A stretch of DNA of 64,000 nt from the NCBI GenBank assembly GCA_001603075.1, contig LVBB01000109.1, forward strand, positions 62,001 to 126,000, read 5' to 3'. Made by a program: the position numbers and the translations under genes. The notes below the pieces were generated by a model, which saw only the letters and a list, made by a program, of their open reading frames with translations, was not told the DNA's origin and made no database searches. This document shows positions 13,801-58,322 of the stretch, piece after piece. The stretch comes from Phycisphaerales bacterium Planc_01 (GTDB taxonomy: Bacteria > Planctomycetota > Phycisphaerae > Sedimentisphaerales > Anaerobacaceae). The first letter of the stretch is position 1. Each line of letters starts with the position of its first letter.

Positions 13801-13816
13801 TCTGTGTCCTGTAAAG

Positions 13817-15597: not shown

Positions 15598-15618
15598 CTT
15601 CTGAATCCCCCACAATGG

Positions 15619-20470: not shown

Positions 20471-20474
20471 ACAA

Positions 20475-29219: not shown

Positions 29220-29251
29220 CTTCATCCTCGGAAACTGGCATGACGTCGCGG

Positions 29252-30658
29252 TCAGTCGTTATTCCACAAGTCTCCCAGATCGACCCATGTCCCCACGCTG
29301 AGGCGTACCACCCTGTTGACGAAAGCGGCCGTACGCGTACGCGGCGTGTGCTCAATGGCCACCAGGTCGCCCGGCCGTACGGAGACGTTGAGCCGATCGG
29401 TGTACTGGTCGTCTTCAATCAGTCGGAAAGCGAGCCTGAGAATGGTTCCGTCACGCTTCAGTCGGTATACGGTCGCATAGCGAGGGTCAACATCCATGTC
29501 CAGTCCCCCCGCCAAAGCAATCACCTGCGCCAGGTTGTACCGGGCATGCGGCGGATATTCGAAATTCCCCGGATTCCGCACCAACCCCACCACGGAAATC
29601 AAAGGCATCTGGACCGGTTCGACAACAACCGTGTCACCTTCCGCCAGCGACACATCCTTAAAGGGGACGTTCATGCCGACGACCGGAAGCACCATGGTCC
29701 CGTGTTCGGGTTCCTCTTCCAGACCCGGAGTCTCGTCAGGCGCCGAGTAAGGGGGTGTCTCCCGGTCATCGGAGCCGGTGTTCTCCGATGCACCTGCCGA
29801 CGATATCGTCGCCTCGTTGCGTTCGTGCGACCGAACCGACGCCAGGGTTCGCGGTGAGGCTGCCATATGCACCGAACCCCAGGACGGTACCGTCACCCCG
29901 GCGGCGGCTGGCCGTTTTGAAGCCGTGGGTTTGGACGAGCCTGTTGCGACAGGCTCCGCCGAGCGATCAACTGACAGGGGTCGTACGGTGTTCTCCCAAG
30001 CCGCTTCTCGAGCACTCGATCCGATAACGCGTACCACAGCCGCTCCGGCTGCAGATATGCCACCTGCCTCGGTCAACAGAGAAACGAGCGTCATCTGATC
30101 GGCTCGAAGCGTGTAGACCCCCGGTCTTTCCACGACTCCGGCGATGTAGACCTTGGACGTTCTGTACTCCAGGATGCGCACATAGATCGACGGCCTGTTG
30201 ACCGCATAGGAGGCATAGGCCCGGACGACATCGGCTTCAATCTCCGCCAGAGACTTACCGGTGGCATCGAGCTGCCCCACCGCAGGCAACGTAATGGTTC
30301 CCTCATCGCTGACGCGACAGATGAATGGTTCTTCTCTGGCGTTTTGCACCCGGGCAGAACGGATCTCCGCCTCCGTGACGGCGCGAAGCAGAGCGGGCAT
30401 GATGAACTCAAGAACGTCGCCGGGCACAACGCGATACGGACCGGTGTGGAGTTTGGCTCGGTTGACGCGATCCATATCGACCGGCGGGACGATGGGGTCT
30501 GCCGCTTCAAAGGCAGCAATCTGGTCCACCGTCGGGGCGCGCACATTGTCGCTGCATCCGAGAAGGCAAAGAGGTGCGACCAGGACCACCAGAAGGCAAC
30601 CTGTTCTGCAATGGGTGCTCGTCCGTAGCAACGAAGAACCGTCTCTCATACAGACCAT
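29252..30658 (-). CDS. wza: Wza-like outer-membrane polysaccharide export lipoprotein
   Basis: 468 residues. A lipoprotein signal ends LCLLGC, with the acylated cysteine at residue 35. The poly-export domain follows (GPYRVVPGDVLEFIMPALL), then a first SLBB domain (VYIAGVVERPGVYTL) and a second (ISVVGLVRNPGNFEYPP). The product should form the outer-membrane channel for the EPS. Between the SLBB domains is about 100 residues of low-complexity Ser/Pro/Ala/Glu-rich sequence not typical of Wza. GGAGG lies 5 nt before the ATG at 30658. Confidence 0.9.
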   Translation of the reverse strand: MVCMRDGSSLLRTSTHCRTGCLLVVLVAPLCLLGCSDNVRAPTVDQIAAFEAADPIVPPVDMDRVNRAKLHTGPYRVVPGDVLEFIMPALLRAVTEAEIRSARVQNAREEPFICRVSDEGTITLPAVGQLDATGKSLAEIEADVVRAYASYAVNRPSIYVRILEYRTSKVYIAGVVERPGVYTLRADQMTLVSLLTEAGGISAAGAAVVRVIGSSAREAAWENTVRPLSVDRSAEPVATGSSKPTASKRPAAAGVTVPSWGSVHMAASPRTLASVRSHERNEATISSAGASENTGSDDRETPPYSAPDETPGLEEEPEHGTMVLPVVGMNVPFKDVSLAEGDTVVVEPVQMPLISVVGLVRNPGNFEYPPHARYNLAQVIALAGGLDMDVDPRYATVYRLKRDGTILRLAFRLIEDDQYTDRLNVSVRPGDLVAIEHTPRTRTAAFVNRVVRLSVGTWVDLGDLWNND

Positions 30659-30690
30659 CTCAGCCTCCACTCGATCGTTGGGCGTCCCCA

Positions 30691-31951
30691 TCATCTCGTC
30701 GGCGCATTGAGGACGTCCGTGGCATTGGCACGTTTCCCGCCCAACAGAACCTGCGAAGAGTGCGTAGGATGTACTGCGGCGACCAATCTGACGTTCTGGA
30801 CATACTTGCAGACCATCTCTCGTATCTCCGGCGTATAGAGGGGGTTCATGACGACAATCGTTCCCGGCCGATGCACGGCCAGGGCCTCTGGCGCAAGAAT
30901 CTCCTGTCCGGTTCCCGGAACGAACTTCCCCTGCTTTGCGGGGTGCATGTCCACTGCGTATTCGAGCTTGTCGTGAGTCAGCCCGAGCACATTCAGAAAG
31001 GTGGCCCCTTTGGTGCCCACTCCCCAGATGACGACTCGCCGACGTCGCTCTTGCCAGACGGCCATTCGTGCCTGCCAGGAGTCCACGAGGTCGCGAAAGA
31101 GGGCCTGGAAACCAGCGAGTCGGTTCAGGCTGCCGACAGACACGGCCGCCGCAGCCACTGGATCGTCTTCGGCGATGGAGGCCGGCCGGGCTTCGAGCGT
31201 GAGATACTGGCCGTCGTAACGTTCGTCGATCTGCAGCACGTCAAACCCCGCCGCCTTGAACACCCGCTCCAGCGACTCGCTTGTGAAGTAGTTGCAGTGT
31301 TCATAGAGGATATCCCAGATCGCCCCGCGCAGAAAGGTATGTCTGGCGTCGGGGACTTCAAAGAACACAATGCACCCTTTCTGTTCATCGAGCGTTTCTC
31401 GGAGTTCGCGCAGGAAACCGAGCGGATCATCAATATGCTCCAGAACGTGGCGGCAGCAGACCATAGCGGGGTGGTACCGTCCGGATCGCCGCGAATAAGT
31501 GTCGGTCACGATCCGCACGTCGGAGGCATCATGATCCGGCGCCGCGCGGATTGTAGCCGGGATCGAATCCAATTCCTTGGTTTCTTCCCAGTCCACACAG
31601 CAATTTCAGAAAATAGCCGTCGCCACAGCCGACTTCAACGATCTCACGGCCGTAGATACCATATTTCCGGATTAGCTCCTCTGCGACACGGGTCGCGTAT
31701 TGACGGAAGTGTGCTGAAGCCGACAGAGGATTCCCATAATGCGGGCCATAGCGGATTCTCTCCGGTTCAAACGCGGCGTTGTGGATGAACCCACATCGAC
31801 CGCAGCAGACAAGTCGCACACATGCGCGTTCGGCACCGAGTGCTTCCTCCCGCGTCTTATACAAGACGTTGCAGAAGACCGGCATGCTCTCCCACGTGAA
31901 GATCTCGTTCTGTTCACGACTGCGGCACAGCGGACATCTCAACGATTTCAC
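30691..31951 (-). pseudogene. C-methyltransferase with a single-base frameshift
   Basis: Two overlapping frames together make one NovU/TylC3-type C-methyltransferase. The first (from a GTG at 31951) gives the zinc-binding N-terminus (CPLC, CGRC) and SAM motif VEVGCGDGYF, then stops after FDPGYNP. The second continues with CCRHVLEHIDDPL, VVIWGVGTKGATFLN and MNPLYTPEI. The whole span is 1,261 nt, one more than 420 codons, so one extra base explains it; the switch lies in the GC run at 31537-31549. The intact paralog upstream is 416 residues. Either a recent inactivation or a sequencing error; both halves are otherwise well conserved, which favours error or very recent change. Confidence 0.8.
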
Positions 31952-37533: not shown

Positions 37534-38370
37534 TCACGCACACACATCATACGTGTGGAACACCTCGCAATCCTGAAAGAAGCACGCCAGAAACTCACCA
37601 TCCGCCACATCCCCCAGCGTGCGCCACTCCACGTCGGGAAGCAGCCGCGTCATCTGCGATCTGTGCTCGCCCAGAACGGCTCGCTTGTGCTCCAGAAGCT
37701 CCTTGATGGAAATGGCACATCGGAAATCCCGCAGCAGACTCACACCGCGAAAGAAGCTGTGATCCATGACATGTCGAACGATGTCTCGGCGGCGGCGCAA
37801 CGGAAACCGCACCCACGGCCAGTGGCACCAGAACCAGATGGGGTACTCATAGACACGGGTCCTTCTGCCGATTGTCCTCAGCGCAGATAGTATGATCCTG
37901 TTGGTCGCAAGATGATCGGCCGACCATAGCAGCGGTTCCTTGTGATAGGGAATGAACACATCCTGCGGCTGGCGACGGACCAGAATCTCTCGAACGCAAT
38001 GGCAGGCCGCTTCCCGGTGCTCCTGCAGCCTGGTCTCCTCGATATCCAGGAGAACGACATCACTGTCCTTCAGCCCCAGCGCCCGCCCTGCCGCACATCC
38101 TTCGCGTCTTCGTATCGTCCGTGATTCCTTCTCCGAAATGAGATGCGTATGGGACTTGCTGCCATCGGTCATGAAGACGACGGCGATATCTGCTCCGGTG
38201 TGTCGCTTTTTCAGAATGGTCCCGCCACAGCCGAGCGTCTCATCATCAAAGTGAGGCGAGAACACGACGGCACTGCGTCTGAGGTGGTCCTCATTGTACC
38301 TGGCAGCCGCTCGGCTGAAGGTCTTCCGATAGAACTGACGCACCTGGGCTTTCAAAAAAGACTCTTCCAT
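37534..38370 (-). CDS. PIG-L (LmbE-like) deacetylase
   Basis: 278 residues. FSPHFDDETLGCGG is the PHPDDE-type zinc site (Phe replacing Pro), and YHKEPLLWSADHLATNRII supplies the later conserved histidine. The family removes acetyl groups from N-acetylated sugars. Here it probably works on an EPS intermediate together with the overlapping GT4, in the manner of GlcNAc-PI or mycothiol pathways, where a transferase and PIG-L act in sequence. It overlaps the GT4 gene by 80 nt. Confidence 0.85.
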   Translation of the reverse strand: MEESFLKAQVRQFYRKTFSRAAARYNEDHLRRSAVVFSPHFDDETLGCGGTILKKRHTGADIAVVFMTDGSKSHTHLISEKESRTIRRREGCAAGRALGLKDSDVVLLDIEETRLQEHREAACHCVREILVRRQPQDVFIPYHKEPLLWSADHLATNRIILSALRTIGRRTRVYEYPIWFWCHWPWVRFPLRRRRDIVRHVMDHSFFRGVSLLRDFRCAISIKELLEHKRAVLGEHRSQMTRLLPDVEWRTLGDVADGEFLACFFQDCEVFHTYDVCA

Positions 38371-39611: not shown

Positions 39612-40973
39612 TCACACCAGATGCCTCTGCCCCTTCAGAACCCTGTAGGCTACCACAGAGTACAGGGCACATCCAATGAACTCGACGACCAGAGTGGAAT
39701 AGGCAATGCCGATGAGTCCATAGCGCACGAACAACACGTAATTGAGGGCGACGTTCAGTCCGCCCAGCGTCAGCGTGGGAAGGATCAGATGCCGCTCATT
39801 GCCCGTCGCCTGGAGCAACGAGGTGAAGGGGAGTGTGGCCCACGTGAAGGCGAGATAGAAGATCAGCACCCTCAGAATCGTGCCGGACTCCACATAATGG
39901 GGACCAAACAGGATCGCAATTGCGCTCGGGACGGCAAAGAATGCGGCAATCGACAACACCAGAATACCCACGAAGAACAGGACCGAATAGCGGATCAACA
40001 TCGCACCATCGACGGCTTGCTTGTGAAAGCGTTTGACCAGGATGGGAAAGAAGGCGACCGAACAGACATTCTTCAGCATCTCCCCCTGCTGAGCGATCTT
40101 GTAGGCCACGCCATAGACGCCCACTTGCCGTGCCATGCCGAGGAACGAGATCATGAGCAGGTCGATCTTCGATGCAAAGAACGCCATGAAACCAAGCAAG
40201 GAGAACACCACTGCCGGCCCGAGCAGCCTCCTGTCCAATTGTATCTTCGAGAAGAAACGGAACGGGACGAGTGTCTGTGAGTGTTGGTACGTCGCCAGCA
40301 TCGTAACGAGATCGGATCCAAGCATGATCAGAAACAGGGCCAGAAGTCCGAATCCGAGATGTAGAAAGGCAATCGACAGGCCCACGGAAAGGACTCTGTT
40401 TACGACGCCCAGAATGGCAATGTACCGCATTCTCTCCGTGGCCTGATAGATGGTCTGAAGAAACCCCTGCAATCCGGTATACGCCAGTTGCACGCTGAAG
40501 AGCATGATATACAGCTTCGTCTGAACCTCATACGGCGTGAAGAAGGAAGAAACGATACACACCGCAACGGCCACCAGACTCAACGTGTTTCTCAGGGCGA
40601 TCGTCCTTTCCAGGCAATGATGCATAGAAGACACATCCTGGCTTCCTTCCCGGATGATCACCTTGTTCAATCCGCCCAGCAGAAGAACATCAAACATGCC
40701 CACGAAGGCACCCACCGTAAGATACGTGCCGTAGTCATGCGGTCCGAGAACACGGGCAATGTAGGCAAATCCAACCAAGCCGATGGCTTGCGCCACAAGG
40801 TTGCCGAGGGCCAGATACGAGGCGTTCTTGATCCCGCGAAGGAAAGGCATCCTCACCGTTTGACCTGCGGTCACAGGAACCACGCCTCCCAGAGGAGGGT
40901 ATGTCACAACGGAATCACACATGCCGTCTTCACACTTCATGCGAGGAATCACCGGCATACGCCGCGATCTCAT
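39612..40973 (-). CDS. Wzx-like oligosaccharide flippase
   Basis: Up to 453 residues with about 12-14 hydrophobic helices. The start of the fold, SYLALGNLVAQAIGLVGFAY followed by IARVLGPHDYGTY, is typical of the PST/Wzx family, which flips undecaprenyl-linked repeat units to the periplasm. It is adjacent to the initiating transferase. The start is ambiguous: ATG 40973 has GGAAG 4 nt upstream, while ATG 40850 sits right before the first helix. Confidence 0.88.
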   Translation of the reverse strand: MRSRRMPVIPRMKCEDGMCDSVVTYPPLGGVVPVTAGQTVRMPFLRGIKNASYLALGNLVAQAIGLVGFAYIARVLGPHDYGTYLTVGAFVGMFDVLLLGGLNKVIIREGSQDVSSMHHCLERTIALRNTLSLVAVAVCIVSSFFTPYEVQTKLYIMLFSVQLAYTGLQGFLQTIYQATERMRYIAILGVVNRVLSVGLSIAFLHLGFGLLALFLIMLGSDLVTMLATYQHSQTLVPFRFFSKIQLDRRLLGPAVVFSLLGFMAFFASKIDLLMISFLGMARQVGVYGVAYKIAQQGEMLKNVCSVAFFPILVKRFHKQAVDGAMLIRYSVLFFVGILVLSIAAFFAVPSAIAILFGPHYVESGTILRVLIFYLAFTWATLPFTSLLQATGNERHLILPTLTLGGLNVALNYVLFVRYGLIGIAYSTLVVEFIGCALYSVVAYRVLKGQRHLV

Positions 40974-40999: not shown

Positions 41000-42463
41000 T
41001 CAGGTCCCCACACCTGCCATCCTCGTCGGTCGGTGACCGTGTTCGTCCATGAGCCGACCAAACAGACTCGCACGGCGGTTCGCCGCTTCGAGCGAACCAT
41101 TGGCCCAGATGGCGATCTCGAATTCTCGCTGCGGATCACCATTGCTCGAGGGCAGCGGGATCGTCACCATGACCAGACGAGACATATCCGGTTTCGGCAA
41201 CGGGGCTCGCCAGATCTCCTGTTCGATCCGGCCGTCGGGACGCGTCGTCTTCAGACAGACCCAAGCGAAATCCATGCGACGCGCGGTCTCGCAGATCGCA
41301 TCCCACCACTGGCCTTCGTCGCGTACCTGGTCGAATCGCAGTTCGAGATACTCAAACGCCTCCCTTTCTTGCCGGTAGCACTGGTTCAGCGCGTACTTCT
41401 CCCGGAGGCCCGTCAGCGTCTCGCACAGGCGCACCGCACCGACCACACGAAAGACCAACACCAGCATGAAGAGGATACAGCCGAAGACAACCAGAGCGCC
41501 GAGGTCCCGGCAGACCATGACGAACAGTCCCAGCCCTGTGAACACGATGGTCAGCAGATAGATCAGGATCACGGCGTGACGCTGCCGGAGGCCCATGTCG
41601 AGCAGGCGATGGTGGAAATGGCTGCGGTCCGGGGCGAAGAGGCTTCGCCGTTCCAGGAAACGCCGCAGCATCGAAAAGAGCGTATCGAAGATCGGAATCC
41701 CCAGCGCCAACGCTGGCAGAGCCAGGCCCACCAGCGCCGAGGATGTGGTTAGACACATCACGCTGGAGGCGGCGATGACGTAACCGAGGAACAGACTGCC
41801 GCAGTCGCCCATGAAGATCTTGGCGGGATTGAAGTTGAAAACGAGGAAGCCCGACAGACTGCCGGCCAAGGCCAGGGCCAGAATCGCCATGATCGCGCTG
41901 TCGCGATGGATGGCCAGAACGGCGATCACGCCGCAGGCAATCGCGCCGATGCCCGCCGCCAGGCCATCCAGACCATCGCTGAGATTCACGGCATTGGTCA
42001 CCCCTACGACCCAGAGCACCGTCAGCAGATACCCTGCAGCACCCAGAGGCAGTGAGAGATCGCTGGTCAGACCGATGCTTCTGATCCTGATCCCTGCTGC
42101 ACACAGGGCAACAGCCGCGAGCACCTCGACACCGAACTTCACCCGGGCCGGCAACCCCTTCAGGTCGTCCACCAGCCCGACCAGAAAGATGAAGGTCCCC
42201 GAAGTCAGCAGCGTCGTTATTTGCAGCCGCTTGGCGCGGAACGCATCGCCGATCGCGTTGTCGACCCACAGAACCGCAACGATGAGGCTCATGGCGGCAA
42301 TGAAGATCGCGACGCCGCCGATACGAGGGACAGGCCGCTCGTGGATCGTTCGGACGCCGGGCCGATCCACAGCACCGATACGCCCGGCGATTCGAATCAC
42401 CAGGGGTGTGACGATCAGGGCCACAATGGCCGAACCGAAATAGACGCTGATGCAGGTGGTCAT
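41000..42463 (-). CDS. WecA/MraY-like undecaprenyl-phosphate sugar-1-phosphate transferase with extra C-terminal domain
   Basis: 487 residues. Residues 1 to about 350 form the polytopic GT4/MraY fold: VGLVDDLKGLPARVKFG, TNAVNLSDGLDGLAAG, FNPAKIFMGDCGSLFLG and DRSHFHHRLLDMGLRQRHAV are the four catalytic loops. It starts EPS assembly by transferring a sugar-1-phosphate to undecaprenyl phosphate. About 130 soluble residues follow (from YLELRFDQVRDEGQWWDAI), not part of WecA; they could be sensory or protein-binding. As the first gene after an 860-bp leader, it probably opens the 28-kb operon. Confidence 0.9.
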   Translation of the reverse strand: MTTCISVYFGSAIVALIVTPLVIRIAGRIGAVDRPGVRTIHERPVPRIGGVAIFIAAMSLIVAVLWVDNAIGDAFRAKRLQITTLLTSGTFIFLVGLVDDLKGLPARVKFGVEVLAAVALCAAGIRIRSIGLTSDLSLPLGAAGYLLTVLWVVGVTNAVNLSDGLDGLAAGIGAIACGVIAVLAIHRDSAIMAILALALAGSLSGFLVFNFNPAKIFMGDCGSLFLGYVIAASSVMCLTTSSALVGLALPALALGIPIFDTLFSMLRRFLERRSLFAPDRSHFHHRLLDMGLRQRHAVILIYLLTIVFTGLGLFVMVCRDLGALVVFGCILFMLVLVFRVVGAVRLCETLTGLREKYALNQCYRQEREAFEYLELRFDQVRDEGQWWDAICETARRMDFAWVCLKTTRPDGRIEQEIWRAPLPKPDMSRLVMVTIPLPSSNGDPQREFEIAIWANGSLEAANRRASLFGRLMDEHGHRPTRMAGVGT

Positions 42464-47237: not shown

Positions 47238-48410
47238 TCAGCGGATGGGAAGAATCACACAGAACGTCGAACCCTGGTTGAGCCTGCTTTGCACGTACAC
47301 CTTGCCACCTGCATTAGAAACCATCCGCTCGACGATACAGAGGCCCAGCCCCGTACCCTCTGACGGCGGCTTGGTGGTGAAGAACGGCTGGAAGATCTTG
47401 TCCAGAATTTCGGCCGGCATACCGCCGCAGTCGTCCTCAAACCACAGGACCACCTGTCCCTCCGCAATCTGCCCTCGGATCACAAGAATGTGATCCTTCT
47501 CGCCGTCCGCCGCCTGGATCGCATTGTCGATCAGGGCAAAACATATCTGCTCGACACCCTTTTCCGAAACGATCATGGTGGGAAGGTCATCCAGCCCGTC
47601 TACACTCACAGAGACTCTTCTGGCTCGGGCCCGGCCTCTCAACAGGCCTATGATCCGTTTTATAACAACGCCAATATCCACGGGCCCGGAGACAGGCAAT
47701 GTCGAATGCCGCGCGTAGCAGCGAAAGCGTTTGACGATGGCAATCACGTCCTGCACCCCACTCTGGCACTGCTCCAAGGCTTCCAGAACCGTTTGAGGGC
47801 ACTTCGACACATCGAGTCTCGCCAGGGCATCGTCCAACGAGAGCTTCACCACGGTCAGAGGTTGCATCATTTCATGCGCCACGGTGGCGCTCAGGGTGCC
47901 GACAGAAGCGAGGCGTTCGGCGCGACACATTCTTTGTCGATAGGCCTCCACTTCCTGCTGTGTCTTCTTCCAATCCGTGATGTCTCGGAAGAGCCCCATG
48001 AGATAGGTCTTCCCCGAGAGGGTGATCGGAAACGCATTGATATCCGCATAGAGGATGCTTCCATCCTTCCGCCGGACCGGTATGTCACGAGATAGAGATT
48101 GCTCCAGTCTCACCTGTCTCTCAAATTCCGTCAGTACAAAGGGAAGGTGCTCCGCCGGATGAATATCGGCAACACTCATCTGTCGGATCTCGTCAGTGTC
48201 GTAGCCCAGCATCCGGCAGAAGATCCGATTGGCCAGATGGAGTTGCTTGCTGTCCACCTCCGCCAGAACCACCCCATCGACGATGTGTTCGAAAATCGTT
48301 CGGAAGTGACGATCGGGCTTATCGATCGTGAACCCCGAGAAGGTATCCTTTCCGAACAATTGACTCCATGCATCTTTCGGATCGTCCACGACGAATCTCA
48401 TAGGCAGCAT
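47238..48410 (-). CDS. PAS-domain histidine kinase (orphan)
   Basis: 390 residues. A PAS domain (about 35-155; DGVVLAEVDSKQLHLANRIF, DITDWKKTQ) is followed by the HisKA box GTLSATVAHEMMQPL with the phosphoacceptor His, and the HATPase domain with DNAIQAADG, WFEDDCGGMP and GTGLGLCIVERM. No membrane segments, so it senses a cytoplasmic signal. There is no adjacent response regulator other than the FixJ-type one 3 kb away, which could be its partner if the nearer kinase-like protein is inactive. An alternative ATG lies at 48401. Confidence 0.9.
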   Translation of the reverse strand: MLPMRFVVDDPKDAWSQLFGKDTFSGFTIDKPDRHFRTIFEHIVDGVVLAEVDSKQLHLANRIFCRMLGYDTDEIRQMSVADIHPAEHLPFVLTEFERQVRLEQSLSRDIPVRRKDGSILYADINAFPITLSGKTYLMGLFRDITDWKKTQQEVEAYRQRMCRAERLASVGTLSATVAHEMMQPLTVVKLSLDDALARLDVSKCPQTVLEALEQCQSGVQDVIAIVKRFRCYARHSTLPVSGPVDIGVVIKRIIGLLRGRARARRVSVSVDGLDDLPTMIVSEKGVEQICFALIDNAIQAADGEKDHILVIRGQIAEGQVVLWFEDDCGGMPAEILDKIFQPFFTTKPPSEGTGLGLCIVERMVSNAGGKVYVQSRLNQGSTFCVILPIR

Positions 48411-48600: not shown

Positions 48601-50238
48601 TCAATCGAAGGCAGCAGGCAAGGTCTCGCCGACGGTTCCATCCGGCATCTGCGGCACGTCTGCAGAATCCGGTCTGCCGATGATGAATTCACCAAACTCT
48701 GTGATGTCGGCGCAGAGCTTGCCGCCGGTCGGATCGTACCACGTTGACAACAGCCTGAAGGGACCGGACTTCTGCGAGCCGCGATGATAGATGGCCAGAG
48801 TCTCGGGAACTCTCAGACCGAAGCTTGCGATGTCCAGCGATATCCGGGCGTCAATCGTAATGATCCCGTTGGCGCCGATCTGAATGCGAACGGGGACAAC
48901 CAGCGGAGCTCGTCCTTCGAATGTCGGATAGAGCGGAGCCAACGGTGTGCGCACGACGCCCATGACATTGTAGCCGGTGCCGGTGAAGCTGTTGACCCGG
49001 ACGGTGACACCGGTGTCGCTTCCACCACGTCTGAACTCATTGTCCCCGACACCGACATACTGTTTGGTCACACCGATACCGGATATGTCTGCCGGCAGAG
49101 GAAAACGATACGCCCGATAGCTTTCGACGGCAGGATTGTCGAAGAACAGCTCGAAGACCTTCTGTCCGTCCGGTGTGACTTCCGTGCAGACCGGACTATG
49201 GCGGCCGTCATCGACGCCCCAACCGATGAAGGTGTTGCCGTTGGCCAGCCGCTGGGCGCCGCCCCCATACCAGCCGAAAATCGGCGGATCGGGGACGTAC
49301 GACCACACGTGCTCGGCGATCCTGTTCTCTTCATCCAAGCGGTACTCGTGGACCCGAGAGGAACGCATTCCCAAACGGTCGGCGTTGTCGTAGAAGAGGA
49401 CATTACCACTGTCCAGGCGATGAAACGCGTGTCCGCCGAAATGGCCCACCGCCTCTTGGGGATCCACGCCGACGAAGGAGAACTCGTTTTCGTCGCCACC
49501 CAGGTGCCACAGGAACCGGCCCGTGCGGCGGCTGATCTTTTTGACCGAACCCAGCGTGACAATGAGAAGGTGACCGTCCGCATCCATGCCGACGGCATTC
49601 AAGGGGAACTCATAGATGGCGGCCTCGGAGTCCTTGGCCCCCGAGACACAGTGATCGAGACCATAGTGGTCCCATGTGCACCATTGAAAGACCACATGGC
49701 GGTCGGCGTCCAGCTCCTGGACAATCCCGCCGCGAATGAGTGCGTTGGAGCTGGGGTCCGGGACCGCCTCGGTCAGGTGATAGCCAAACAGCAGGGCATG
49801 GCCATTGGGAAGCCACTGAAAGTCATGGGCGTCGGCGATGTACCCGTCTGCCATCTGGAAGCTATCGATCAGGGAAAATTCCCGATCCATCACCAAGTGG
49901 ACGGCGTTGCCTCCATCGGCACAGGCGTGGTGCTCGAGAAGCTGAGCGTAGGTCAACAAACCGTTTGGCTGCATCTTGAAATCAAAGGCGCCGTAATCCG
50001 CTGATTCCTTGTACCAGACCGGCGCGCCTCCGTTGTCAAGGATCATGAGGTACAGACCGGCCCCTTCGACTTCGCCGGCTGCAGCGAGATAGATATACCC
50101 CTCGCCGAGGGCGTTCGCATCGTAGACACAGGCCGTGACGGCCGGAAAGTCTGCCGGAAGGGCCGAGTCGGCCCTTTGAGCACAGACACCACTCAGAACC
50201 CACAGAAAGACGCCAAGAACTGAAACCGTGCGTGCCAT
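48601..50238 (-). CDS. Secreted arylsulfotransferase (ASST)-like protein
   Basis: 545 residues with a signal peptide (VLGVFLWVLSGVCA). Propeller-like repeats match the arylsulfotransferase family: DAHDFQWLPNGHALLFGYHL, GGHAFHRLDSGNVLFYDN, GAQRLANGNTFIGWG. ASSTs move sulfate between phenolic donors and acceptors outside the cytoplasm, with conserved His residues at the propeller centre; here DAHDFQ and GGHAFHR are candidates. The C-terminal 120 residues form an extra beta domain. Its place between regulators and EPS modification genes suggests a substrate on the polysaccharide, but many family members are uncharacterised. AAAGGA lies 7 nt upstream. Confidence 0.75.
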   Translation of the reverse strand: MARTVSVLGVFLWVLSGVCAQRADSALPADFPAVTACVYDANALGEGYIYLAAAGEVEGAGLYLMILDNGGAPVWYKESADYGAFDFKMQPNGLLTYAQLLEHHACADGGNAVHLVMDREFSLIDSFQMADGYIADAHDFQWLPNGHALLFGYHLTEAVPDPSSNALIRGGIVQELDADRHVVFQWCTWDHYGLDHCVSGAKDSEAAIYEFPLNAVGMDADGHLLIVTLGSVKKISRRTGRFLWHLGGDENEFSFVGVDPQEAVGHFGGHAFHRLDSGNVLFYDNADRLGMRSSRVHEYRLDEENRIAEHVWSYVPDPPIFGWYGGGAQRLANGNTFIGWGVDDGRHSPVCTEVTPDGQKVFELFFDNPAVESYRAYRFPLPADISGIGVTKQYVGVGDNEFRRGGSDTGVTVRVNSFTGTGYNVMGVVRTPLAPLYPTFEGRAPLVVPVRIQIGANGIITIDARISLDIASFGLRVPETLAIYHRGSQKSGPFRLLSTWYDPTGGKLCADITEFGEFIIGRPDSADVPQMPDGTVGETLPAAFD

Positions 50239-50270
50239 AATCCGTTCCTTTCCCGCCGCATCCGATACCG

Positions 50271-50282
50271 GGCGGGCCCGCC
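50271..50282. repeat. 12-bp perfect palindrome upstream of an ASST-like gene
   Basis: GGCGGGCCCGCC, 33 bp before the ATG at 50238 on the minus strand. It could be an operator; in such GC-rich DNA chance is also possible. Confidence 0.25.
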
Positions 50283-50388
50283 GCACAATCGTTGCGGCCG
50301 AGGCCAGCCGAGGGACACCCCGCCCCCCCCACCAGGCAGTCGGGATGTCCCCTGGATCTGGCGATGACGAAGGAGTGATTGAAGAATG

Positions 50389-51930
50389 CTATCCTTCCGG
50401 GACCCAGCTACGCGGAATCCGATAGGCACGATAGATATTGGTGCTGCCGAATTGGCCGGCCTCCGGATTGACTGGCCCGAGATGAGGCGAGATGTACTCC
50501 CAGACGATCTCCTTCTCCGCTGTCACCTCAAAGATGCGCCCGTTGCTTCCCTGGCAGATCAGGGTATTGCCGTTGGCCAGGCGCTGGGCGCCGCTGATGA
50601 ATGGACTGAAGAAACTCGCCTCGACGCAGTTTCCCTGGTCGTCGTACCGCGCCATGGGATTGGCATACTCCCACACGACCTCCAACGTGACCGGGTCGAA
50701 TTCGAGAATGCGCGAGTACTCCCGCAGTCGGTTGTTGGCCGTTGGAGACAAGCCGGGCATCAACGGACCATAACCTGCATTTCCACCGTTGTCGTACACA
50801 AGGATGTTCCCGGCGCCGGGCAACCCCTGCGGGATCATGTGTACGTGGTGCTGGCCGATGATCTGCCCAAGTTTGTGCTCCGGCCGGCCGTAGGAGTAAT
50901 CAGGCCCCACCCGCCAGATGACATCGCCGGAAGCCCATTGGCCCTCGGGATGGTCATGCCGAGCAATGATCCCAAGAATGTTGCTGCTGCGGCAGTCGAA
51001 AATGACATTGTCCGGATGGAAGCGAAGGTCGCTGGCATCGTACCATTTGTTCGGCCCCAGATACGAGGCGGCGTTGAAATGATGGTAGTCCGAGCCACCG
51101 TTGGGGTCGAAGCCGGAGAATGTTTCGTAGACGGCCTCCCGAGCGGCGTCACAGAACCCCATCTGGTCATAGTACTCCCAGGCATGCCACTGCCAGGTGA
51201 GGTTCCCTTCCCAATCGACCTCATACAGAGCGTCGTCGTGCAAGAGATGCCTGCTGATGTGCTTGGTCTGCTCGACGGGTGGATGGTAATTGGACAACAT
51301 CAGCGTCTTACCCCCGGTAGCCATCGGCTCCAGTCCGGGAGCATAGTATCCCACGGGGCTTCCTTGTCTCTGGAAATCGTGGTGGCATCCGAACAGTTCC
51401 TCTGCCCCGGGGCTGCGGGGCTGGCCGCGCCATTCCCAGACCTTGTCCCCGTTCCAGTCGAGTTGCACGAGCGGACAGGTCTGCCCGCCGGAGGAACCCA
51501 GAAAGCCCTCCTGGCCGATGATGTAGCCCCCCGGAAGAATCTTCGACGGCGTGCTGGTCAGCGGCCACGCGTTGATCACGTTGCCCTCCATGTCGATCAG
51601 GATCGCCGGGTTGTTGACGCCGGTGTCCGGATCGATATACCCTCCCATGGTGCACAGCAGGGTGTAACCGTCCCATGCCTTGTCCATATCGTACCGGACA
51701 ACACCCGTCACAGGAGTCTCCTCGTCGTTGCGCATGCCGCGGGCCCACATTCCCCGAGTGACGGCGCCGTGGATCTGCGTCAAAGTGGCCTGCAGAGCCT
51801 CTGCCTGTTCCGAACTGATCATCTCCGTGATGTCACCACCGCACCAGAAGAACTCCTGCGCCGCAAGCACACCCGGCACCAGGAACACTGCCAGAAACAA
51901 TCCAATCATAATGTGAAGTTTCGGTTTCAT
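50389..51930 (-). CDS. Secreted arylsulfotransferase-like protein, tandem paralog A
   Basis: 513 residues with a signal peptide (IMIGLFLAVFLVPGVLA). It shares with the next gene CGGD/HGVDI near the mature start, WDGYTLL, ARHDHPEGQW, GQHHVHMIPQGLPGAGNI, VYDNGGNAGYG and ANGNTLI. The HxxHMIP histidines lie where the ASST catalytic histidine is expected. It probably sits in the periplasm as a propeller. AAGGAG lies 8 nt before the ATG. With its paralog 140 bp upstream it forms a tandem duplication. Confidence 0.75.
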   Translation of the reverse strand: MKPKLHIMIGLFLAVFLVPGVLAAQEFFWCGGDITEMISSEQAEALQATLTQIHGAVTRGMWARGMRNDEETPVTGVVRYDMDKAWDGYTLLCTMGGYIDPDTGVNNPAILIDMEGNVINAWPLTSTPSKILPGGYIIGQEGFLGSSGGQTCPLVQLDWNGDKVWEWRGQPRSPGAEELFGCHHDFQRQGSPVGYYAPGLEPMATGGKTLMLSNYHPPVEQTKHISRHLLHDDALYEVDWEGNLTWQWHAWEYYDQMGFCDAAREAVYETFSGFDPNGGSDYHHFNAASYLGPNKWYDASDLRFHPDNVIFDCRSSNILGIIARHDHPEGQWASGDVIWRVGPDYSYGRPEHKLGQIIGQHHVHMIPQGLPGAGNILVYDNGGNAGYGPLMPGLSPTANNRLREYSRILEFDPVTLEVVWEYANPMARYDDQGNCVEASFFSPFISGAQRLANGNTLICQGSNGRIFEVTAEKEIVWEYISPHLGPVNPEAGQFGSTNIYRAYRIPRSWVPEG

Positions 51931-52070
51931 ACTCACTTCTCCTTTTCCTGCAGACATCCCGGGGCCAGTGGCTTGCACATGTCACATGGTGTCTGATTCT
52001 CGGTGGCACACAGATCATCGCAACCCGAGGCGACTGGAATGCCTTGATTTGATCGCAGTACGCGGCAGTA

Positions 52071-53621
52071 TCACTTCGTGGTTCCTTCGGGAGCCCACTC
52101 GTATGGAACGCGGTACGCGCGGTAGATGGCGACGCCCATGAAGGCCTCGGCATCAAACCATGTGGGGACATACTCCCAGACGACCTCACCGGACGCGGTC
52201 ACCTCAAAGACGCGTCCCACGTCCGACTCGGTGATGAGGGTGTTCCCATTGGGGAGACGCTGCATCCCCGACATCAGATTGCTGAAGAAGAGCTTCTCGT
52301 CGCCAAGGATTCTACCGTCGCCGTCGCGGTCCTCGGACAGCTTCGGCTGCTTGTACTCCCAAACGACCTGTTTGGTCGTGGGATCGATCTCAAGGACCCG
52401 GCTGAACAGCCGAAACGTATTGGGCCACGAGCCGAGAGCATTGCCCTCCGCATCCCTCAAGCCCTGGATGAGCGCCCCGTAGCCCGCCGCTCCGCCGTTG
52501 TCGAAGATCAGCATGTTGCCTTCGCCGGGCAGGCCGCGAGGGATCATGTGCGCCTGGTGCTGGCCGATGATCTGACCCACTCTGTAATTGTCGCTGGCTG
52601 TGGAATAGTCCGGACCAAGCTTCCAGATGACATCCCCCTGCTTCCATTGGCCCTCCGGGTGGTCGTGCCTGGCGATGACGATCGTGATGTTCAGCGAGCG
52701 GAAGTCGGCGATGATGTTGTCGGGGTGAAAGCGCAGATCCCCCGCATCGTACCACTTGTTCGGCCCACACCAGGCGACGGCGTTCCCGTGCGACCAGTCC
52801 TCCGGCAGCATGTCCGCCATGAAATCAGGGCCCTCGTAGTTGCGTCCCAGATCGAGGCCGGCTCTGGCCCACTCACAGAGTCCGAGCTGTTCGAAATGCT
52901 TCCAGCATTCCCAGCGGAACAACTCGTTCCCGTTCCAGTCCAGTTCCCGGATCATATCGTCCTTGATGAACTTCCTGGAGATGTGTTTCGTCTCATCCGG
53001 GTCGGGGCGGGTGCTCTCGAGAACGAGTACCTTTGCGCCCTCAAGCATCGGCTCAGCTCCCGGCGCGTAGTAGCCGCATGGACTGCCTTCGCGCTCGTGG
53101 TCATGGTGCATGTTCGTGTCCCACTGCTTGACAACCTCGCCGTCCCAGCTCAACTGCGTCACCCTGCCGCCCCCGGGCGTCATGGCCTCCGGATCGACCG
53201 AACTGCCCGCAATGCATCCGCCCGGCAACGGCTTTGCGGCGGAAAGGTATCCCGCCCCCGGGAAGGTCCACTCGTTGACGATGTTGCCCCTCATGTCGAT
53301 CAGGACGTTGTTGCCGTTCTTCTCCGTGCCCGTGGGCGTGAAGCAGTTCAGCAGCGTGTACCCGTCCCAGGTCTTGTCGGGCTTGTAGATCCGCAGGCCT
53401 CGTTGGCCCTCGTCGACCATATCGCCCGTCGGGAAGCCCGTCGGCGTGGGTGCCAGATCGGTCATTCCTGTCTGTATGGCATTGTGGATGGCCTCCATAT
53501 CCTCACCGAAGACACCGGCGTCCGCGATGTCGACGCCGTGCCAGAAGGTCTGCGCGCAGGCTGGCGACGACAGAAGACCTGCAATCCACAAGATGCTCAC
53601 TGTATACGTTGCCCTTTTCAT
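52071..53621 (-). CDS. Secreted arylsulfotransferase-like protein, tandem paralog B
   Basis: 516 residues, with a signal peptide (SILWIAGLLSSPACA). The propeller motifs ARHDHPEGQWKQGDVIW, GQHQAHMIPRGLPGEGNM and NGGAAGYGALI parallel paralog A. A short DRDGDGRILGDEK segment near residue 435 resembles a calcium-binding EF-hand/dockerin loop not seen in the sister protein. AGGAG lies 9 nt upstream. The gap of 343 bp to the deacetylase gene implies its own promoter or an unlinked unit. Confidence 0.75.
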   Translation of the reverse strand: MKRATYTVSILWIAGLLSSPACAQTFWHGVDIADAGVFGEDMEAIHNAIQTGMTDLAPTPTGFPTGDMVDEGQRGLRIYKPDKTWDGYTLLNCFTPTGTEKNGNNVLIDMRGNIVNEWTFPGAGYLSAAKPLPGGCIAGSSVDPEAMTPGGGRVTQLSWDGEVVKQWDTNMHHDHEREGSPCGYYAPGAEPMLEGAKVLVLESTRPDPDETKHISRKFIKDDMIRELDWNGNELFRWECWKHFEQLGLCEWARAGLDLGRNYEGPDFMADMLPEDWSHGNAVAWCGPNKWYDAGDLRFHPDNIIADFRSLNITIVIARHDHPEGQWKQGDVIWKLGPDYSTASDNYRVGQIIGQHQAHMIPRGLPGEGNMLIFDNGGAAGYGALIQGLRDAEGNALGSWPNTFRLFSRVLEIDPTTKQVVWEYKQPKLSEDRDGDGRILGDEKLFFSNLMSGMQRLPNGNTLITESDVGRVFEVTASGEVVWEYVPTWFDAEAFMGVAIYRAYRVPYEWAPEGTTK

Positions 53622-53964: not shown

Positions 53965-54936
53965 TCACAGGACGGCTTCTTGCTCCAGAGTTACCGACTC
54001 ACCTGCCACACCGACCGAGGTCCCTGCGTGACCCATCCGCTCACGTGACATGCCGCCTGCCACCGGCTGCCAGTTGGCCTCCTCTTGCATGTGTGCGGCG
54101 ATGGCTCTCATCGTCGTGAATGTGCAGTGCCTGCAAAGCCATCGCAGCTTCGGCATTGTGCTGCTGAGATTGACATAGCATTTGAACCTTCGCTTCAGCG
54201 CCAGCGGAAGCCGAGGATGACCGGGGTCGATCTCGCGAGGATGCACATACACAGTCAATGGCCGACCCTCCCTGTGCAGTTGCTCCACACCCCACCGAAT
54301 CAGAGGCAGGGGCGTGATCCGCAGGTACCCACCCCCGAACAGGCACACCCGATGGCCCAGCACGCGCACCGTTGACACAGGAATCTCCACCAGCCGATTG
54401 TGTCGTGTTCTCATGACGTGTGGCCCGGGTTCGGCCTGACGCAGGCCGCCGTGACCGTGGTTCGCGGGAAACACACTGGCGTCGTATTCATAGCCGGCCT
54501 CTGCCACAACATCGAACACCCATCGGTTATCCTCCCTGACGCAGAATCCGGGAGATCGGAAACCCACGACCTCCTGACCGATGCAGTCCTCCAGAATCAT
54601 CCTGGCCCGAACAATATCGTCAGCAAACGCGCGGCGTCCCACGCGATAGGCAAGAACGTGGGCATATCCATGTGACGCGATCTCGTGTCCCGCCTGCCAG
54701 CAGCGTCGAACGACATGAGGCATGCGCTCCGCCATCCAGCCCAGACAGAAGAAGGTCGCTTTGGCATCGTGCTCGGCAAGTAGCTCAAGGATCCGATCGA
54801 CGTTCTTCTCCGCCTGAAGGGGCAGTTGGGGCCAGTCGTCGATGCCCGGGACCCTCTCGCTGTCGAGAATATGGAACCAATCCTCCAGTTCGCAACTGAA
54901 AGCGTCTGTGGGAATTGCCTGGTCGGGCGTTTCCAT
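53965..54936 (-). CDS. XrtA-type polysaccharide deacetylase (DUF3473)
   Basis: 323 residues. NodB domain start AFSCELEDWFHI with the metal-binding acids, then HEIASHGYAHVLAYRV with the paired histidines, VGFRSPGFCVRED and YDASVFP, and the C-terminal DUF3473 part (LFGGGYLRITPLPLIRWGVE, YVHPREIDPGHPRL). This deacetylase subfamily occurs in exosortase A/PEP-CTERM EPS loci and N-deacetylates the EPS or its intermediate. AAAGGAG lies 6 nt before the ATG. It has no signal peptide, as usual for the subfamily. Confidence 0.88.
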   Translation of the reverse strand: METPDQAIPTDAFSCELEDWFHILDSERVPGIDDWPQLPLQAEKNVDRILELLAEHDAKATFFCLGWMAERMPHVVRRCWQAGHEIASHGYAHVLAYRVGRRAFADDIVRARMILEDCIGQEVVGFRSPGFCVREDNRWVFDVVAEAGYEYDASVFPANHGHGGLRQAEPGPHVMRTRHNRLVEIPVSTVRVLGHRVCLFGGGYLRITPLPLIRWGVEQLHREGRPLTVYVHPREIDPGHPRLPLALKRRFKCYVNLSSTMPKLRWLCRHCTFTTMRAIAAHMQEEANWQPVAGGMSRERMGHAGTSVGVAGESVTLEQEAVL

Positions 54937-55105
54937 ACTGGTCTCCTTTCCTCGGGCCTGATCCTCATGCCGACCGCATGCCTGCACTCTCGGCAAGACA
55001 CAAGGATGGCTCCGGCAGAGCACGTGACAACCGCAGCCGTGGCAGGAGAGGGACGACAGGCCACCTCTCCTTTGGAGAAATCCGGCCTCGGCCGAGCAAC
55101 CGGAT

Positions 55106-56137
55106 TCAGGCAAGCGCCGGACTGATCACGGGACCGATGAGACGGGTTGCCCACAGGGGCATCCTCTTCCACAATTCGACCTTGTTTCGGTACCGATCAC
55201 TCGTGGGAGTCGCCAGCGCGAGGCGCCCACCCGGGGGTGTCCAGTATTGCCAACACAACTCGATCGGATGTGCTCCCCAGCGTTCCTTGAACGTGTGCTG
55301 CCCGCTCCCTTTGGTGCTCCGTCCGAAATCGAACCACCGCATGCCCTGGCCGCAGTAGTACTCGATCGCCGCCCAGTTCAGAATGTAGTTCGGTCCCAGA
55401 CTGTCGTACCCTCTCAAGGCCGCCCCCCAGGAGCATTGGACCCAACCCTTGAACGTATAGGCGAACAGGACGGCTACGGGCACGCCGGCCAACACCGCCA
55501 AGAAGATGCGACTCTGATCGGGGAACATCCGCATGATCGCGCGAAACAGCCTGCACGGATAGCAGGGTGTGCCCAACTCGCGCATGCGAATGGTCCAGAC
55601 GCGATAGAACTCGCCGACCGACTCCTGTCCTCCGACCTTGACGGTCAATCCGGATCTCTCGGCCTTGCGCACCCGGTTGCGGGTCTTGTGACGCAGCGTC
55701 TCCCATACATCCTGCGCATTCGGAGCCAGAGGCAGATACATGGACATCTTGTCCCGACGCAGATACAGATCGTGGGACAGCGGGATCGTATTCCGCAATT
55801 CCACGGAGTCACAGCCGTGCTCTTCGGCAATCGCAATAGCGCGATGGTAGAGGGCCTCTGTGGCGGCGGCACTCGTGGTCACGGGACCACCGTAGTCGCT
55901 GAACGGCATGGAAAGCAACCGGTTGCCGAACAACCGGCTACGGACGTGTATCAGGGGCAGGACCCCGCCAATCCGACCGTTCTGACGGGCGATAAGATAG
56001 TGTCCTTTGTAGCCGAAGGCGTCCTCGACCATGCGAGTCCATGCATAGGTATGGCACAGTCTGGCACCAGCCGCTCGCTGGATGAAATCATCACACTCGT
56101 CGCTTCGCTCTTTGAGTGTTGTGATCTCGGGGTTCAT
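55106..56137 (-). CDS. FemAB-like (XrtA-associated) GNAT-fold protein
   Basis: 343 residues. FemAB/GNAT fold with HTYAWTRMVEDAFGYKGHYL at the start, PFSDYGGPV, RHKTRNRVRKAERSGLTVKV in the middle and FDFGRSTKGSGQHTFKERWG at the end, the pattern of the FemAB-related protein of PEP-CTERM EPS loci. FemAB enzymes transfer aminoacyl groups; in EPS loci the acceptor is unknown but may be an amine freed by the deacetylase next door. AAAGGAGG lies 8 nt before the ATG. Confidence 0.85.
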   Translation of the reverse strand: MNPEITTLKERSDECDDFIQRAAGARLCHTYAWTRMVEDAFGYKGHYLIARQNGRIGGVLPLIHVRSRLFGNRLLSMPFSDYGGPVTTSAAATEALYHRAIAIAEEHGCDSVELRNTIPLSHDLYLRRDKMSMYLPLAPNAQDVWETLRHKTRNRVRKAERSGLTVKVGGQESVGEFYRVWTIRMRELGTPCYPCRLFRAIMRMFPDQSRIFLAVLAGVPVAVLFAYTFKGWVQCSWGAALRGYDSLGPNYILNWAAIEYYCGQGMRWFDFGRSTKGSGQHTFKERWGAHPIELCWQYWTPPGGRLALATPTSDRYRNKVELWKRMPLWATRLIGPVISPALA

Positions 56138-56336
56138 GAATACAGCCTCCTTTCCGGGCAACTTGCCGTCCCGTGGGTCAGGGTTCTCATGTCAGCACAT
56201 TTGAAACTGTCGCAGGATTGTCTCCACAGCCCGAGGCCAGCCGTCGGCATGTGTGTCGCTTGACGCTCATTCGAGCCATGGATAGAATGCAAAAAGGCGA
56301 TGTTCGCGCGCGCAACAGCGGCGCCGAGCAGAGTCC

Positions 56337-56424: not shown

Positions 56425-57093
56425 TTACATGGAGCGGCTCATATGGCTCCGGATTGGGTCCTCTTCGGTGACATGGATTTCGCCGCCCTCGCTGTCTTCT
56501 TCGGCAGGCACACGCCTCAGCCACGCCTCTCGCCAGAAATGGAAGCATGACCGGTCACATCCACCGAACGCCGTCCCATCGCACATCGCACCTTCCAGGA
56601 GAACCGTGTTCTTCATCGTCCGTAATTCGCCGTTGGTTTCCAGCATGATACGCTCCACCCTCCGTAGGACTCGATATCGCTTTCCACAGAACCTGCGCAT
56701 TCCGGTCATCCAGAGCAGGCCTCTGCACCGCCGCTTGCGGTTCAGGGTGGCGAGAATCTCGTCAATCGACTTGACTTCCACCAACTCACCCGGCTGCAAC
56801 CCCAGCGTCTCAGCCTGTCGGATATCCTCTGAATGGACGATCTCGGCCGCTCTTGGATCCGTGCCGCCGGACGGACGCCCGAGGTTGTCAACGACCACCT
56901 GGGCCAGCGCTCTGCGCCAACCCAGGTTCTCCAGCCACCAGGTCAGATAACTGGCGAATCGCTGATAGAGGCGCATCACAGGGCTCATGCGCCAGACGGT
57001 GGAACTCGATCTCAGGCATTCCAAGGTGCCATGACACGATGTGTTATCGAGCCCTGCATCACTACGATCGCGGACAACGGGTTTTGGGTTCAT
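56425..57093 (-). CDS. Conserved hypothetical protein with C-terminal Cys/Trp motif, EPS-associated
   Basis: 222 residues, not assigned to a named family. The N-terminal half is helical. The C-terminal half looks like a small beta-barrel domain (LQPGELVEVKSIDEILATL, RRFCGKRYRVLRRVERIM) ending in a motif with spaced cysteines, EGAMCDGTAFGGCDRSCFHF then WREAWLRRV. Similar unnamed proteins occur in other bacterial polysaccharide clusters, as far as I can recall. The cysteines could bind a metal. The start is supported by AAGGA 9 nt upstream, and it follows the WecG-like gene by 27 bp. The function is open. Confidence 0.7.
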   Translation of the reverse strand: MNPKPVVRDRSDAGLDNTSCHGTLECLRSSSTVWRMSPVMRLYQRFASYLTWWLENLGWRRALAQVVVDNLGRPSGGTDPRAAEIVHSEDIRQAETLGLQPGELVEVKSIDEILATLNRKRRCRGLLWMTGMRRFCGKRYRVLRRVERIMLETNGELRTMKNTVLLEGAMCDGTAFGGCDRSCFHFWREAWLRRVPAEEDSEGGEIHVTEEDPIRSHMSRSM

Positions 57094-57120: not shown

Positions 57121-57891
57121 CTACGACAGAGGCTCGTTCTCCGAATGGCGCGCGAAGACCATCTCCAGCAGCATACGACAGGTGAATTCCGGCACGATGC
57201 CGTATCGTCTCCATCGCCGTGGCTCCATAACGAGCCGATAGAGGAACTCCGTGCCCGTACGCCGGACGAATCGAGGCGCCCACTTCGCCTGCCCACTGAC
57301 CACATCCAGGGTCCCACCGATCCCCATGCAATACGGCGCCGCGATGGCCCCGCGATACCTGGCGATCCACATCTCCTGCTTCGGAGAGCCCATCGCAACG
57401 AAAAGCATATCAGGACGTGCCGTGTTGATCTGCTCGATGATCGGCTCGTCCTCATCGAAGTACCCATCATGTCGGCCCACAAGCTGGAGGTCTGGAAACT
57501 GCTCCCGCAAACGACGGTATGCCAACTCACTGGAGCGTGGTCTGGCGCCAAGGAGGAAGACGCGCAGCGCCTCTTCCTGAGCAGCGGCGAGCAATTCGTA
57601 GAACAGTTGAACACCCGTGATGCGGGGCACGACGCGGCCGTGCAGCAGTCGAATGGCAAGAGCCGCCCCCACCCCATCGCAGCAGTGAATGTCGGCGCGC
57701 CGAATGACGTCCCGCAGGGATATGTCTCCGCGAGCGAAGCAGATCTTCTCAGGACCGACTGCCAGACAGAAGGTCTTCGTGTGCGTCCTGATGCGAGCCA
57801 GAATACATTCCACGGCATGCCGATATGAACGGAAACACGTGATCGGCACGCCCATTATCCAGACTGTTTCCACACCATTGACTGAATGCAT
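57121..57891 (-). CDS. WecG/TagA/CpsF-family glycosyltransferase
   Basis: 256 residues, the family's typical size. Conserved GPEKICFARGDISLRDVIRR, CDGVGAALAIRLL, RVFLLGARP and MLFVAMGSPKQEMWIARYR are visible. Members transfer N-acetylmannosaminuronate or N-acetylmannosamine onto the lipid-linked primer, the second step of many EPS and teichoic acid linkage units. It may work on the product of the WecA-like enzyme at 41000-42463. GAGGG lies 8 nt before the ATG. Confidence 0.9.
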   Translation of the reverse strand: MHSVNGVETVWIMGVPITCFRSYRHAVECILARIRTHTKTFCLAVGPEKICFARGDISLRDVIRRADIHCCDGVGAALAIRLLHGRVVPRITGVQLFYELLAAAQEEALRVFLLGARPRSSELAYRRLREQFPDLQLVGRHDGYFDEDEPIIEQINTARPDMLFVAMGSPKQEMWIARYRGAIAAPYCMGIGGTLDVVSGQAKWAPRFVRRTGTEFLYRLVMEPRRWRRYGIVPEFTCRMLLEMVFARHSENEPLS

Positions 57892-58322
57892 GGTCGAATC
57901 CCTCTCACACCCGCCCTCTGATGGTCTTGCCCCGCTCATCCTGTACCCACAGGCGGCACTATAGCGCGCCGTTGAAGAGCGCGACCGCCTTCTCTTTGTA
58001 GTCCTGTCGCAGATCGTCCGTGGCTCTCACGGTCTTCCTCTCGTCCAGCGCACGGGCTCCGTCTCCCGGCAGGTCCGGCCGACGGGCAGGGGAAGATGCC
58101 CGCTGGTCTCCTCGGCGGTGACGAGGCACGTCGCGCCGGCCCTTGTCGCACCCAGGACCACCTTGGGCGCCCTGCACGGCCGGGAGCTGCCGTTGGAATC
58201 GACCCGTGCACGGGCATGACGAAAGGCTCCGCGCGATGCGTGTTGCGAATGGCGGTATCCGAATACACCTGCACGTTTCCGATCCTGTGTCGCTGTGATA
58301 GCATGGACGAACCATAATCCCC
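57892..58322. other. 430-bp gap, possible gene remnant in three frames
   Basis: On the minus strand three short stretches in different frames look weakly protein-like: IGNVQVYSDTAIRNTHRAEP, then VVLGATRAGATCLVTAEETS, then RATDDLRQDYKEKAVALFNG. Read in order with two frame changes they would form a product of about 110 residues. This may be a decayed gene or chance. No promoter or terminator was identified. Confidence 0.3.

Follow-up and report, generated by a model that had tools for sequence, protein, structure and literature searches.

Three arylsulfotransferase-like genes in an exopolysaccharide locus

We analysed a 64,000-nucleotide stretch of contig LVBB01000109.1 from Phycisphaerales bacterium Planc_01 (the window), in which three consecutive genes, P0003, P0002 and P0001, encode proteins resembling arylsulfotransferases (ASSTs) amid genes for an exopolysaccharide (EPS). 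All three genes are read from the minus strand, one behind the other, with gaps of 92 and 102 bases between their open reading frames (ORFs) (Table 1), and the outer limits given by the original prediction, 48601-53621, coincide with the exact ends and starts of these ORFs. The likely start is Met17 both in P0002 (about 51930) and in P0001 (about 50238). By inspection, each protein carries a hydrophobic N-terminal stretch resembling a Sec signal peptide. All three score above the curated Pfam cut-offs for PF05935 (24.2 bits) and PF14269 (27 bits), with 37.0 and 31.1 bits for P0001, 37.7 and 27.1 bits for P0002, which barely clears the second threshold, and 32.4 and 35.7 bits for P0003. These ASST families were the only ones matched: no hit was obtained at E up to 1 with PF00685, PF13469 and kindred families of sulfotransferases dependent on 3'-phosphoadenosine-5'-phosphosulfate (PAPS), and no NCBIfam model gave a match to P0001, P0002 or P0003 at E up to 0.1. 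P0002 and P0003 are 48% identical, in agreement with the proposal that two of the genes are tandem paralogs.

The catalytic residues are kept in P0002 and P0003 and partly lost in P0001

The original prediction held that all three proteins share the ASST pattern with retained histidines, and named the catalytic His and Arg positions as the point to check. We defined the catalytic constellation by the equivalents of His252, His356-x-Asn358, Arg374 and His436 of EcAssT from uropathogenic E. coli, written HHNRH, and judged it on aligned sequences. In HMMER alignments, A355-H356-V357-N358, S373-R374 and Q435-H436 of EcAssT fall opposite the ASST family motifs, and the HIN, GR and QH residues of Cpz4, the caprazamycin sulfotransferase of Streptomyces, fall in the same columns. 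The correspondence at His252 is taken from Cpz4 and from the EcAssT residue. A joint alignment of 72 sequences, restricted to matches scoring over 55 bits in proteins shorter than 1200 aa, shows H-H-N-R-H at the five positions in P0002, P0003 and Cpz4. P0001 reads H-P-N-gap-H, and its ortholog in a second genome, described below as L040, reads H-N-N-gap-H. The motifs GQHHVHMIP and GQHQAHMIP are confined to P0002 and P0003, P0001 having GHFGGHAF at that place, and the equivalent of His436, the residue that becomes sulfated (H377 in P0002), has an aligned His in all three proteins. The claim therefore stands for P0002 and P0003 and fails for P0001, in which the equivalents of both His356 and Arg374 are gone.

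The constellation is strongly conserved around P0002: HHNRH was found in 87/87 members of its subfamily examined, P0002 and P0003 included, and a 48-row alignment concurs. Among the 72 aligned sequences, 46 keep all five positions, with Arg374 kept in 47, the His356 equivalent in 68 and the His436 equivalent in 70. We considered taking the loss of Arg374 alone as the mark of a dead enzyme and dropped this rule, many planctomycete relatives being devoid of the Arg. P0002 and P0003 themselves are very likely competent PAPS-independent sulfuryl transferases.

This conservation also bears on the possibility that all three proteins are non-catalytic propellers, serving as structural or sugar-binding parts of an EPS export complex, as propellers often serve as scaffolds and the clade of P0001 is catalytically decayed; we regard it as very improbable, since P0002, P0003 and the rest of the 87 members retain all the catalytic positions and the Asn358 equivalent as well, needless in a scaffold.

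The predicted fold of P0002 is closest to Cpz4

The AlphaFold2 model of P0002 (pLDDT 86.9, pTM 0.87) displays the ASST beta-propeller fold. VIA-align ranked Cpz4 first (9kf4, Z 30.8, root-mean-square deviation (rmsd) 3.1 over 325 residues, 23% identity; 9kf6, Z 30.4), followed by EcAssT (3elq, Z 22.1, rmsd 3.5, 326 residues), the best non-ASST entry reaching Z 20.2. Foldseek likewise returned the Cpz4 entries first and the EcAssT entries second. As a single sequence, P0001 matches Cpz4 among solved structures at E 4.9e-22; the same search gave nothing useful for P0002 and P0003, and it took the family profile and the fold search to relate these two to known structures.

Cpz4 is thus the best fold match and has the same His, HxN, Arg and His positions, but it acts on a small molecule in antibiotic biosynthesis, outside any EPS locus. 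According to a 2026 review (PMC13426309), Cpz4 is PAPS-independent and, when offered glycosides, favours their sugar hydroxyl; His436 of EcAST carries the sulfate transiently; and for most bacterial PAPS-independent arylsulfotransferases neither the natural acceptors nor the physiological role is known. A PAPS-independent mechanism for P0002 and P0003 fits this closest structure, and the resemblance of the model to Cpz4 provides a lead on a sugar acceptor, not proof of one. EcAssT shares the propeller, and its H356, N358, R374 and H436 align with the catalytic positions, but it differs by an N-terminal beta-sandwich and, as described in the same review, by an operon with DsbL/DsbI; P0002 has instead a predicted N-terminal helix (56-82 in the model), and the neighbours of the trio are EPS genes. 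No DsbL/DsbI partner was found among the genes annotated around the trio, the neighbourhood to which this search was limited.

P0001 belongs to a decayed clade that accompanies intact paralogs

P0001 groups with four other proteins (L040:6000-8150, L007:13607, L161:4379 and L162:6077), and the Arg is absent in 5/5 members of this clade. Some have lost other positions too: in L161:4379 His356 is replaced by Leu and His436 by Asn, and in L162:6077 Arg stands in place of His252, His in place of Asn358 and Ser in place of His436. In 5/5 loci an intact HHNRH ASST gene adjoins the gene of this clade, so that a decayed paralog beside an intact neighbour looks like a recurring arrangement. With Pro at His356 and a gap at Arg374, we class P0001 as an ASST-like homolog rather than a functional ASST; having lost these two equivalents it is probably not a normal catalyst, and is probably a non-catalytic binding or partner protein, a candidate pseudoenzyme. 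The L040 ortholog carries extra C-terminal fn3/KNH-like domains. These domains, sought just downstream of P0001, gave no credible match there (best E 0.42), indicating that P0001 is shorter than its ortholog and not obviously frameshifted.

The trio lies beside genes of an XrtA-type EPS locus

The genes for a FemAB-family protein and a polysaccharide deacetylase lie directly upstream of the trio, and both products exceed the cut-offs of NCBIfam equivalog models for the XrtA/PEP-CTERM system. Together with Wzc, Wza and Wzx, these TIGR03019 and TIGR03006 matches assign the region to an XrtA-type EPS modification locus, an assignment made from these genes (Table 1). Many glycosyltransferases are also encoded there, and the placement of the trio inside an EPS locus, as originally proposed, is borne out by Wzc, Wza, Wzx, glycosyltransferases, a UDP-sugar dehydrogenase, FemAB and the XrtA-type deacetylase. 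Because a UDP-sugar dehydrogenase and deacetylases are present, the polymer of the locus is probably acidic and contains amino sugars.

Table 1 Features of the window around the ASST-like trio
Feature	Coordinates	Strand	Remarks
P0003, secreted ASST-type propeller protein, 516 aa	52071..53621	-	Motifs MHHDHER, DWSHGNAV, ADFRSLN, GQHQAHM; catalytic residues kept
P0002, secreted ASST-type propeller protein, 529 aa	50389..51978	-	H199/H200, H300-x-N302, R330, H377 kept
P0001, ASST-like propeller protein, second clade, 561 aa	48601..50286	-	His356 equivalent is Pro, Arg374 equivalent lost
Polysaccharide deacetylase, XrtA system, with DUF3473	53965..55113	-	TIGR03006 above cut-off; ortholog beside trio in L040
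FemAB-family XrtA/PEP-CTERM-associated protein	55106..56161	-	TIGR03019 above cut-off; orthologs in L040 (64%) and L158 (76%)
222 aa protein	56425..57093	-	No Pfam/NCBIfam match; homologs in L040 (58%) and L158
WecG/TagA/CpsF glycosyltransferase	57121..57939	-	Domain match
PAS histidine kinase, downstream of trio	47238..48410	-	Partial counterpart in L040 (39% identity), also downstream
Glycos_transf_4 family, likely initiating glycosyltransferase	41000..42463	-	58% identical in congener locus L158
Wzx-type flippase (Polysacc_synt)	39612..40973	-	Domain match
PIG-L type de-N-acetylase	37534..38370	-	Domain match
Wza-type export protein (Poly_export, SLBB)	29252..30694	-	Domain match
Wzc-type chain-length/tyrosine autokinase	27006..29225	-	Domain match
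Heparinase II/III family protein	16932..19076	-	Weak HepC-like matches
UDP-glucose/GDP-mannose dehydrogenase (uronic acid supply)	15619..16935	-	Domain match

Relatives were collected in one scan of genome contigs, from which the best 80 of 408 confirmed loci were retained; gene calls beyond the window come from a basic script, so that their starts are approximate. The top locus among these 80, L040, is a 12.3 kb contig of the metagenome-assembled genome (MAG) Sedimentisphaerales bacterium Zod_Metabat.96, from the same family as the window genome and another genus, which makes Sedimentisphaerales the most likely order of the window as well. L040 and G267:C282 are one contig, the 4.6 kb G267 locus being an exact part of L040. 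L040 contains the whole trio, with orthologs of P0003 (2372-4225, 74.5% identity), P0002 (4315-5862, 77.6%) and P0001 (6000-8150, 61.9%), followed by counterparts of the 56425 gene (57.9%), FemAB (64.0%), the deacetylase (56.9%) and, in part, the kinase (38.7%). The window has the order [56425, FemAB, deacetylase] then [P0003, P0002, P0001], and L040 has the same two three-gene blocks swapped. An adjacency that outlasts block rearrangement between genera argues for function. In three genomes (the window, L040 and L158), the EPS locus encodes the 222 aa protein of 56425-57093 together with FemAB.

As a control, we turned to 40 further ASST loci within the same order and phylum, in two sets of 20 whose ASSTs are more distant than the trio's own subfamily. 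The FemAB/deacetylase/Wz block was absent from all of them, as judged by BLAST to the window proteins at 1e-6, the only means by which EPS genes were detectable on these 3.5-20 kb contigs, several of which are short. Three of the 40 had a sulfatase match and one a PIG-L match. The secreted subfamily members from genomes other than the two with the trio (L041, L042, L043, L046, L049 and L063) showed no EPS locus in their gene lists and the few domains checked.

A promoter and terminator scan returned fewer sites than shuffled sequences (2 vs 3.5 and 3 vs 6.3) and is therefore uninformative on operon structure. Elsewhere in the EPS locus, a PaaK/CapK-like ligase (19004-20683) lies next to the heparinase II/III-family protein (16932-20683 together). 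This ligase was considered as a donor-making enzyme, a role for which no support was obtained.

Gene content and a possible PAPS-free route

We searched the window's own genome (97.4% complete) for the enzymes of PAPS-dependent sulfation. No adenosine 5'-phosphosulfate (APS) kinase was detected, with a control positive in 11/14, and three congeners of at least 94% completeness were equally without a match. Sulfotransfer_1 was also absent (control positive in 2/14), as was PF01747 ATP sulfurylase (control positive in 5/14 and negative in E. coli; the CysD-type enzyme is not covered by this model). The same genome gave 23 sulfatase matches. Overall, a PAPS-free route is favoured, not proven.

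Extracellular EPS sulfation weighed against other functions

Taken together, the data give about an even chance to the reading in which P0002 and P0003, as secreted sulfuryl transferases with the ASST fold and no need of PAPS, act on the EPS of the surrounding XrtA-type locus; for the acceptor itself, we consider the polysaccharide of the locus and any other target to be roughly balanced. If the mechanism follows that of EcAssT, a sulfate ester, phenolic or other and presumably environmental, would donate its sulfuryl group outside the cytoplasm to the His436 equivalent (His377 in P0002), which would pass it on to the polysaccharide at a hydroxyl or an amino group. P0001, without the Arg and one catalytic His, would probably have a binding or partner role. 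The signal peptides, which suggest export, and the conserved EPS synteny are in keeping with extracellular EPS sulfation. The original idea of PAPS-independent extracellular sulfation thus gains from these features and from the Cpz4-like fold, and is weakened by the closest relatives beyond this group, which look like sulfur-uptake genes.

Several observations weigh against EPS sulfation. No source of a sulfate donor is visible in the locus, and with gaps of 92-343 bp around the trio its co-transcription is uncertain. Two weak Sulfotransfer_3 matches (48 and 39 bits) lie elsewhere in the genome, so sulfation may also be of the PAPS type, and partial APS-kinase matches occur in 2/6 genus members, both at most 80% complete. 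The EPS association of the trio is known from two genomes of one family. P0003 had no match in five congeners, P0002 had none in the three congeners searched, and locus L158 of congener G264 (G264:C317) holds a related EPS stretch, with FemAB (76%), a 56425-like gene and Glycos_transf_4 (58%), and no ASST. From these last absences, the ASSTs look like an optional decoration of such EPS loci. Finally, within the trio's wider subfamily, genes for an NMT1-type binding protein, a permease and an ATPase all lie within 5 kb of the ASST in 56/80 loci, and 61 loci have one or more of them.

This last point is central to the main alternative, sulfur scavenging or detoxification, in which sulfate would be stripped from environmental aryl sulfates or moved between small phenols and the EPS placement would be incidental. 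ASST-like proteins of Lachnospiraceae, Paenibacillus and Enterobacteriaceae (Klebsiella/Raoultella), among loci L044-L119, are about 45-50% identical and have the identical catalytic set, but differ from P0002 and P0003 in that most start at MGxPTxYPTG, without a signal peptide, and adjoin NMT1-type ATP-binding cassette (ABC) transporter genes. Some adjoin thioredoxin, thioredoxin reductase and Cys/Met enzymes; in a Syntrophaceae MAG (L063:9362-14845), several ASST copies surround a gene with a PAPS-reductase domain; and the 23 sulfatase matches of the window's genome point the same way. The trio itself has no adjoining transporter or sulfur gene, P0002 and P0003 carry signal peptides, and their adjacency to EPS-modifying genes persists through rearrangement between genera. 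On balance we find scavenging possible but doubtful for the trio, although it is mainly the apparent organosulfur-uptake role of the wider subfamily that imposes restraint about the EPS acceptor.

The subfamily forms a widespread group in its own right (e.g. L044:8720-14371, L052, L116), mostly signal-less, in which the catalytic set is intact and the genes neighbour those of NMT1-type ABC transporters. Judging from gene content, this NMT1-linked ASST operon of gut Firmicutes, Paenibacillus and Enterobacteriaceae likely serves organosulfur uptake.

Alternatively, the trio may act within the EPS locus on another acceptor, such as PEP-CTERM surface proteins, lipid-linked sugars or a glycolipid. 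The XrtA-type markers are compatible with such a role, as is a second three-gene ASST cluster (C139) flanked by proteins with PEP-CTERM-like tails, but no PEP-CTERM substrate was noticed beside the trio, and its nearest conserved neighbours modify polysaccharide (the deacetylase) or are FemAB-like, which makes this explanation improbable.

Returning to EPS sulfation, one may imagine a PAPS-free extracellular pathway to a glycosaminoglycan-like polymer, in which an acidic EPS would be exported unsulfated, N-deacetylated by the XrtA-type deacetylase, and O- or N-sulfated outside the cell by two Cpz4-like ASSTs recycling scavenged sulfate esters, with the decayed paralog as polysaccharide-binding partner; as a complete scheme, we hold it to be unlikely.

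Relation to known sulfation systems

The original prediction stated that ASSTs had not been tied to bacterial EPS sulfation. This is not entirely accurate in view of PMC10866078, which, in the part that concerns these genes, cites arylsulfotransferase genes in MAGs of Hydrogenedentota and Sumerlaeota as support for the production of sulfated polysaccharides, with no locus, residues or assay given there. Our full-text searches of an open-access library brought up no paper that places ASST genes in a defined EPS locus; the arylsulfotransferase passages of PMC8307928 concern algae and plants, and those of PMC13353177 a rat enzyme used as an assay reagent. The synechan xss cluster resembles our locus in that sulfotransferase genes, xssA and xssE, lie within a bacterial EPS cluster, but their products belong to other families, and the cyanobacterial survey described in that paper used PF00685, PF03567 and PF13469; in the section consulted, its authors state that, to their knowledge, no sulfotransferase genes had been identified in other bacterial EPS clusters (PMC8205485). 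For Pontiella strain F1, PMC7356697 describes an N-sulfated EPS; the putative GAG sulfotransferases named in the part consulted are those of strain F21 only. The ASST family is already known; what is new is its secretion and placement in an EPS-modification block together with a decayed paralog. An ASST trio tied to such a block offers a concrete candidate acceptor and, if EPS sulfation is true, sulfation after export and without PAPS would differ in its chemistry and might open a way to heparin-like polymers.

Other observations

In L158, the region 8610-12294 holds genes for an MBOAT acyltransferase, a protein with a weak GDSL match and a GINT1_N-domain protein, and it is possible that acylation is swapped for sulfation there. 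The window's own genome holds six ASSTs. Its second cluster, L007 (G000:C139:175000-194900), comprises three tandem ASST-like genes at 9033-15829, one encoding a CBM_4_9 domain and one lacking the Arg, and the flanking proteins bear PEP-CTERM-like tails.

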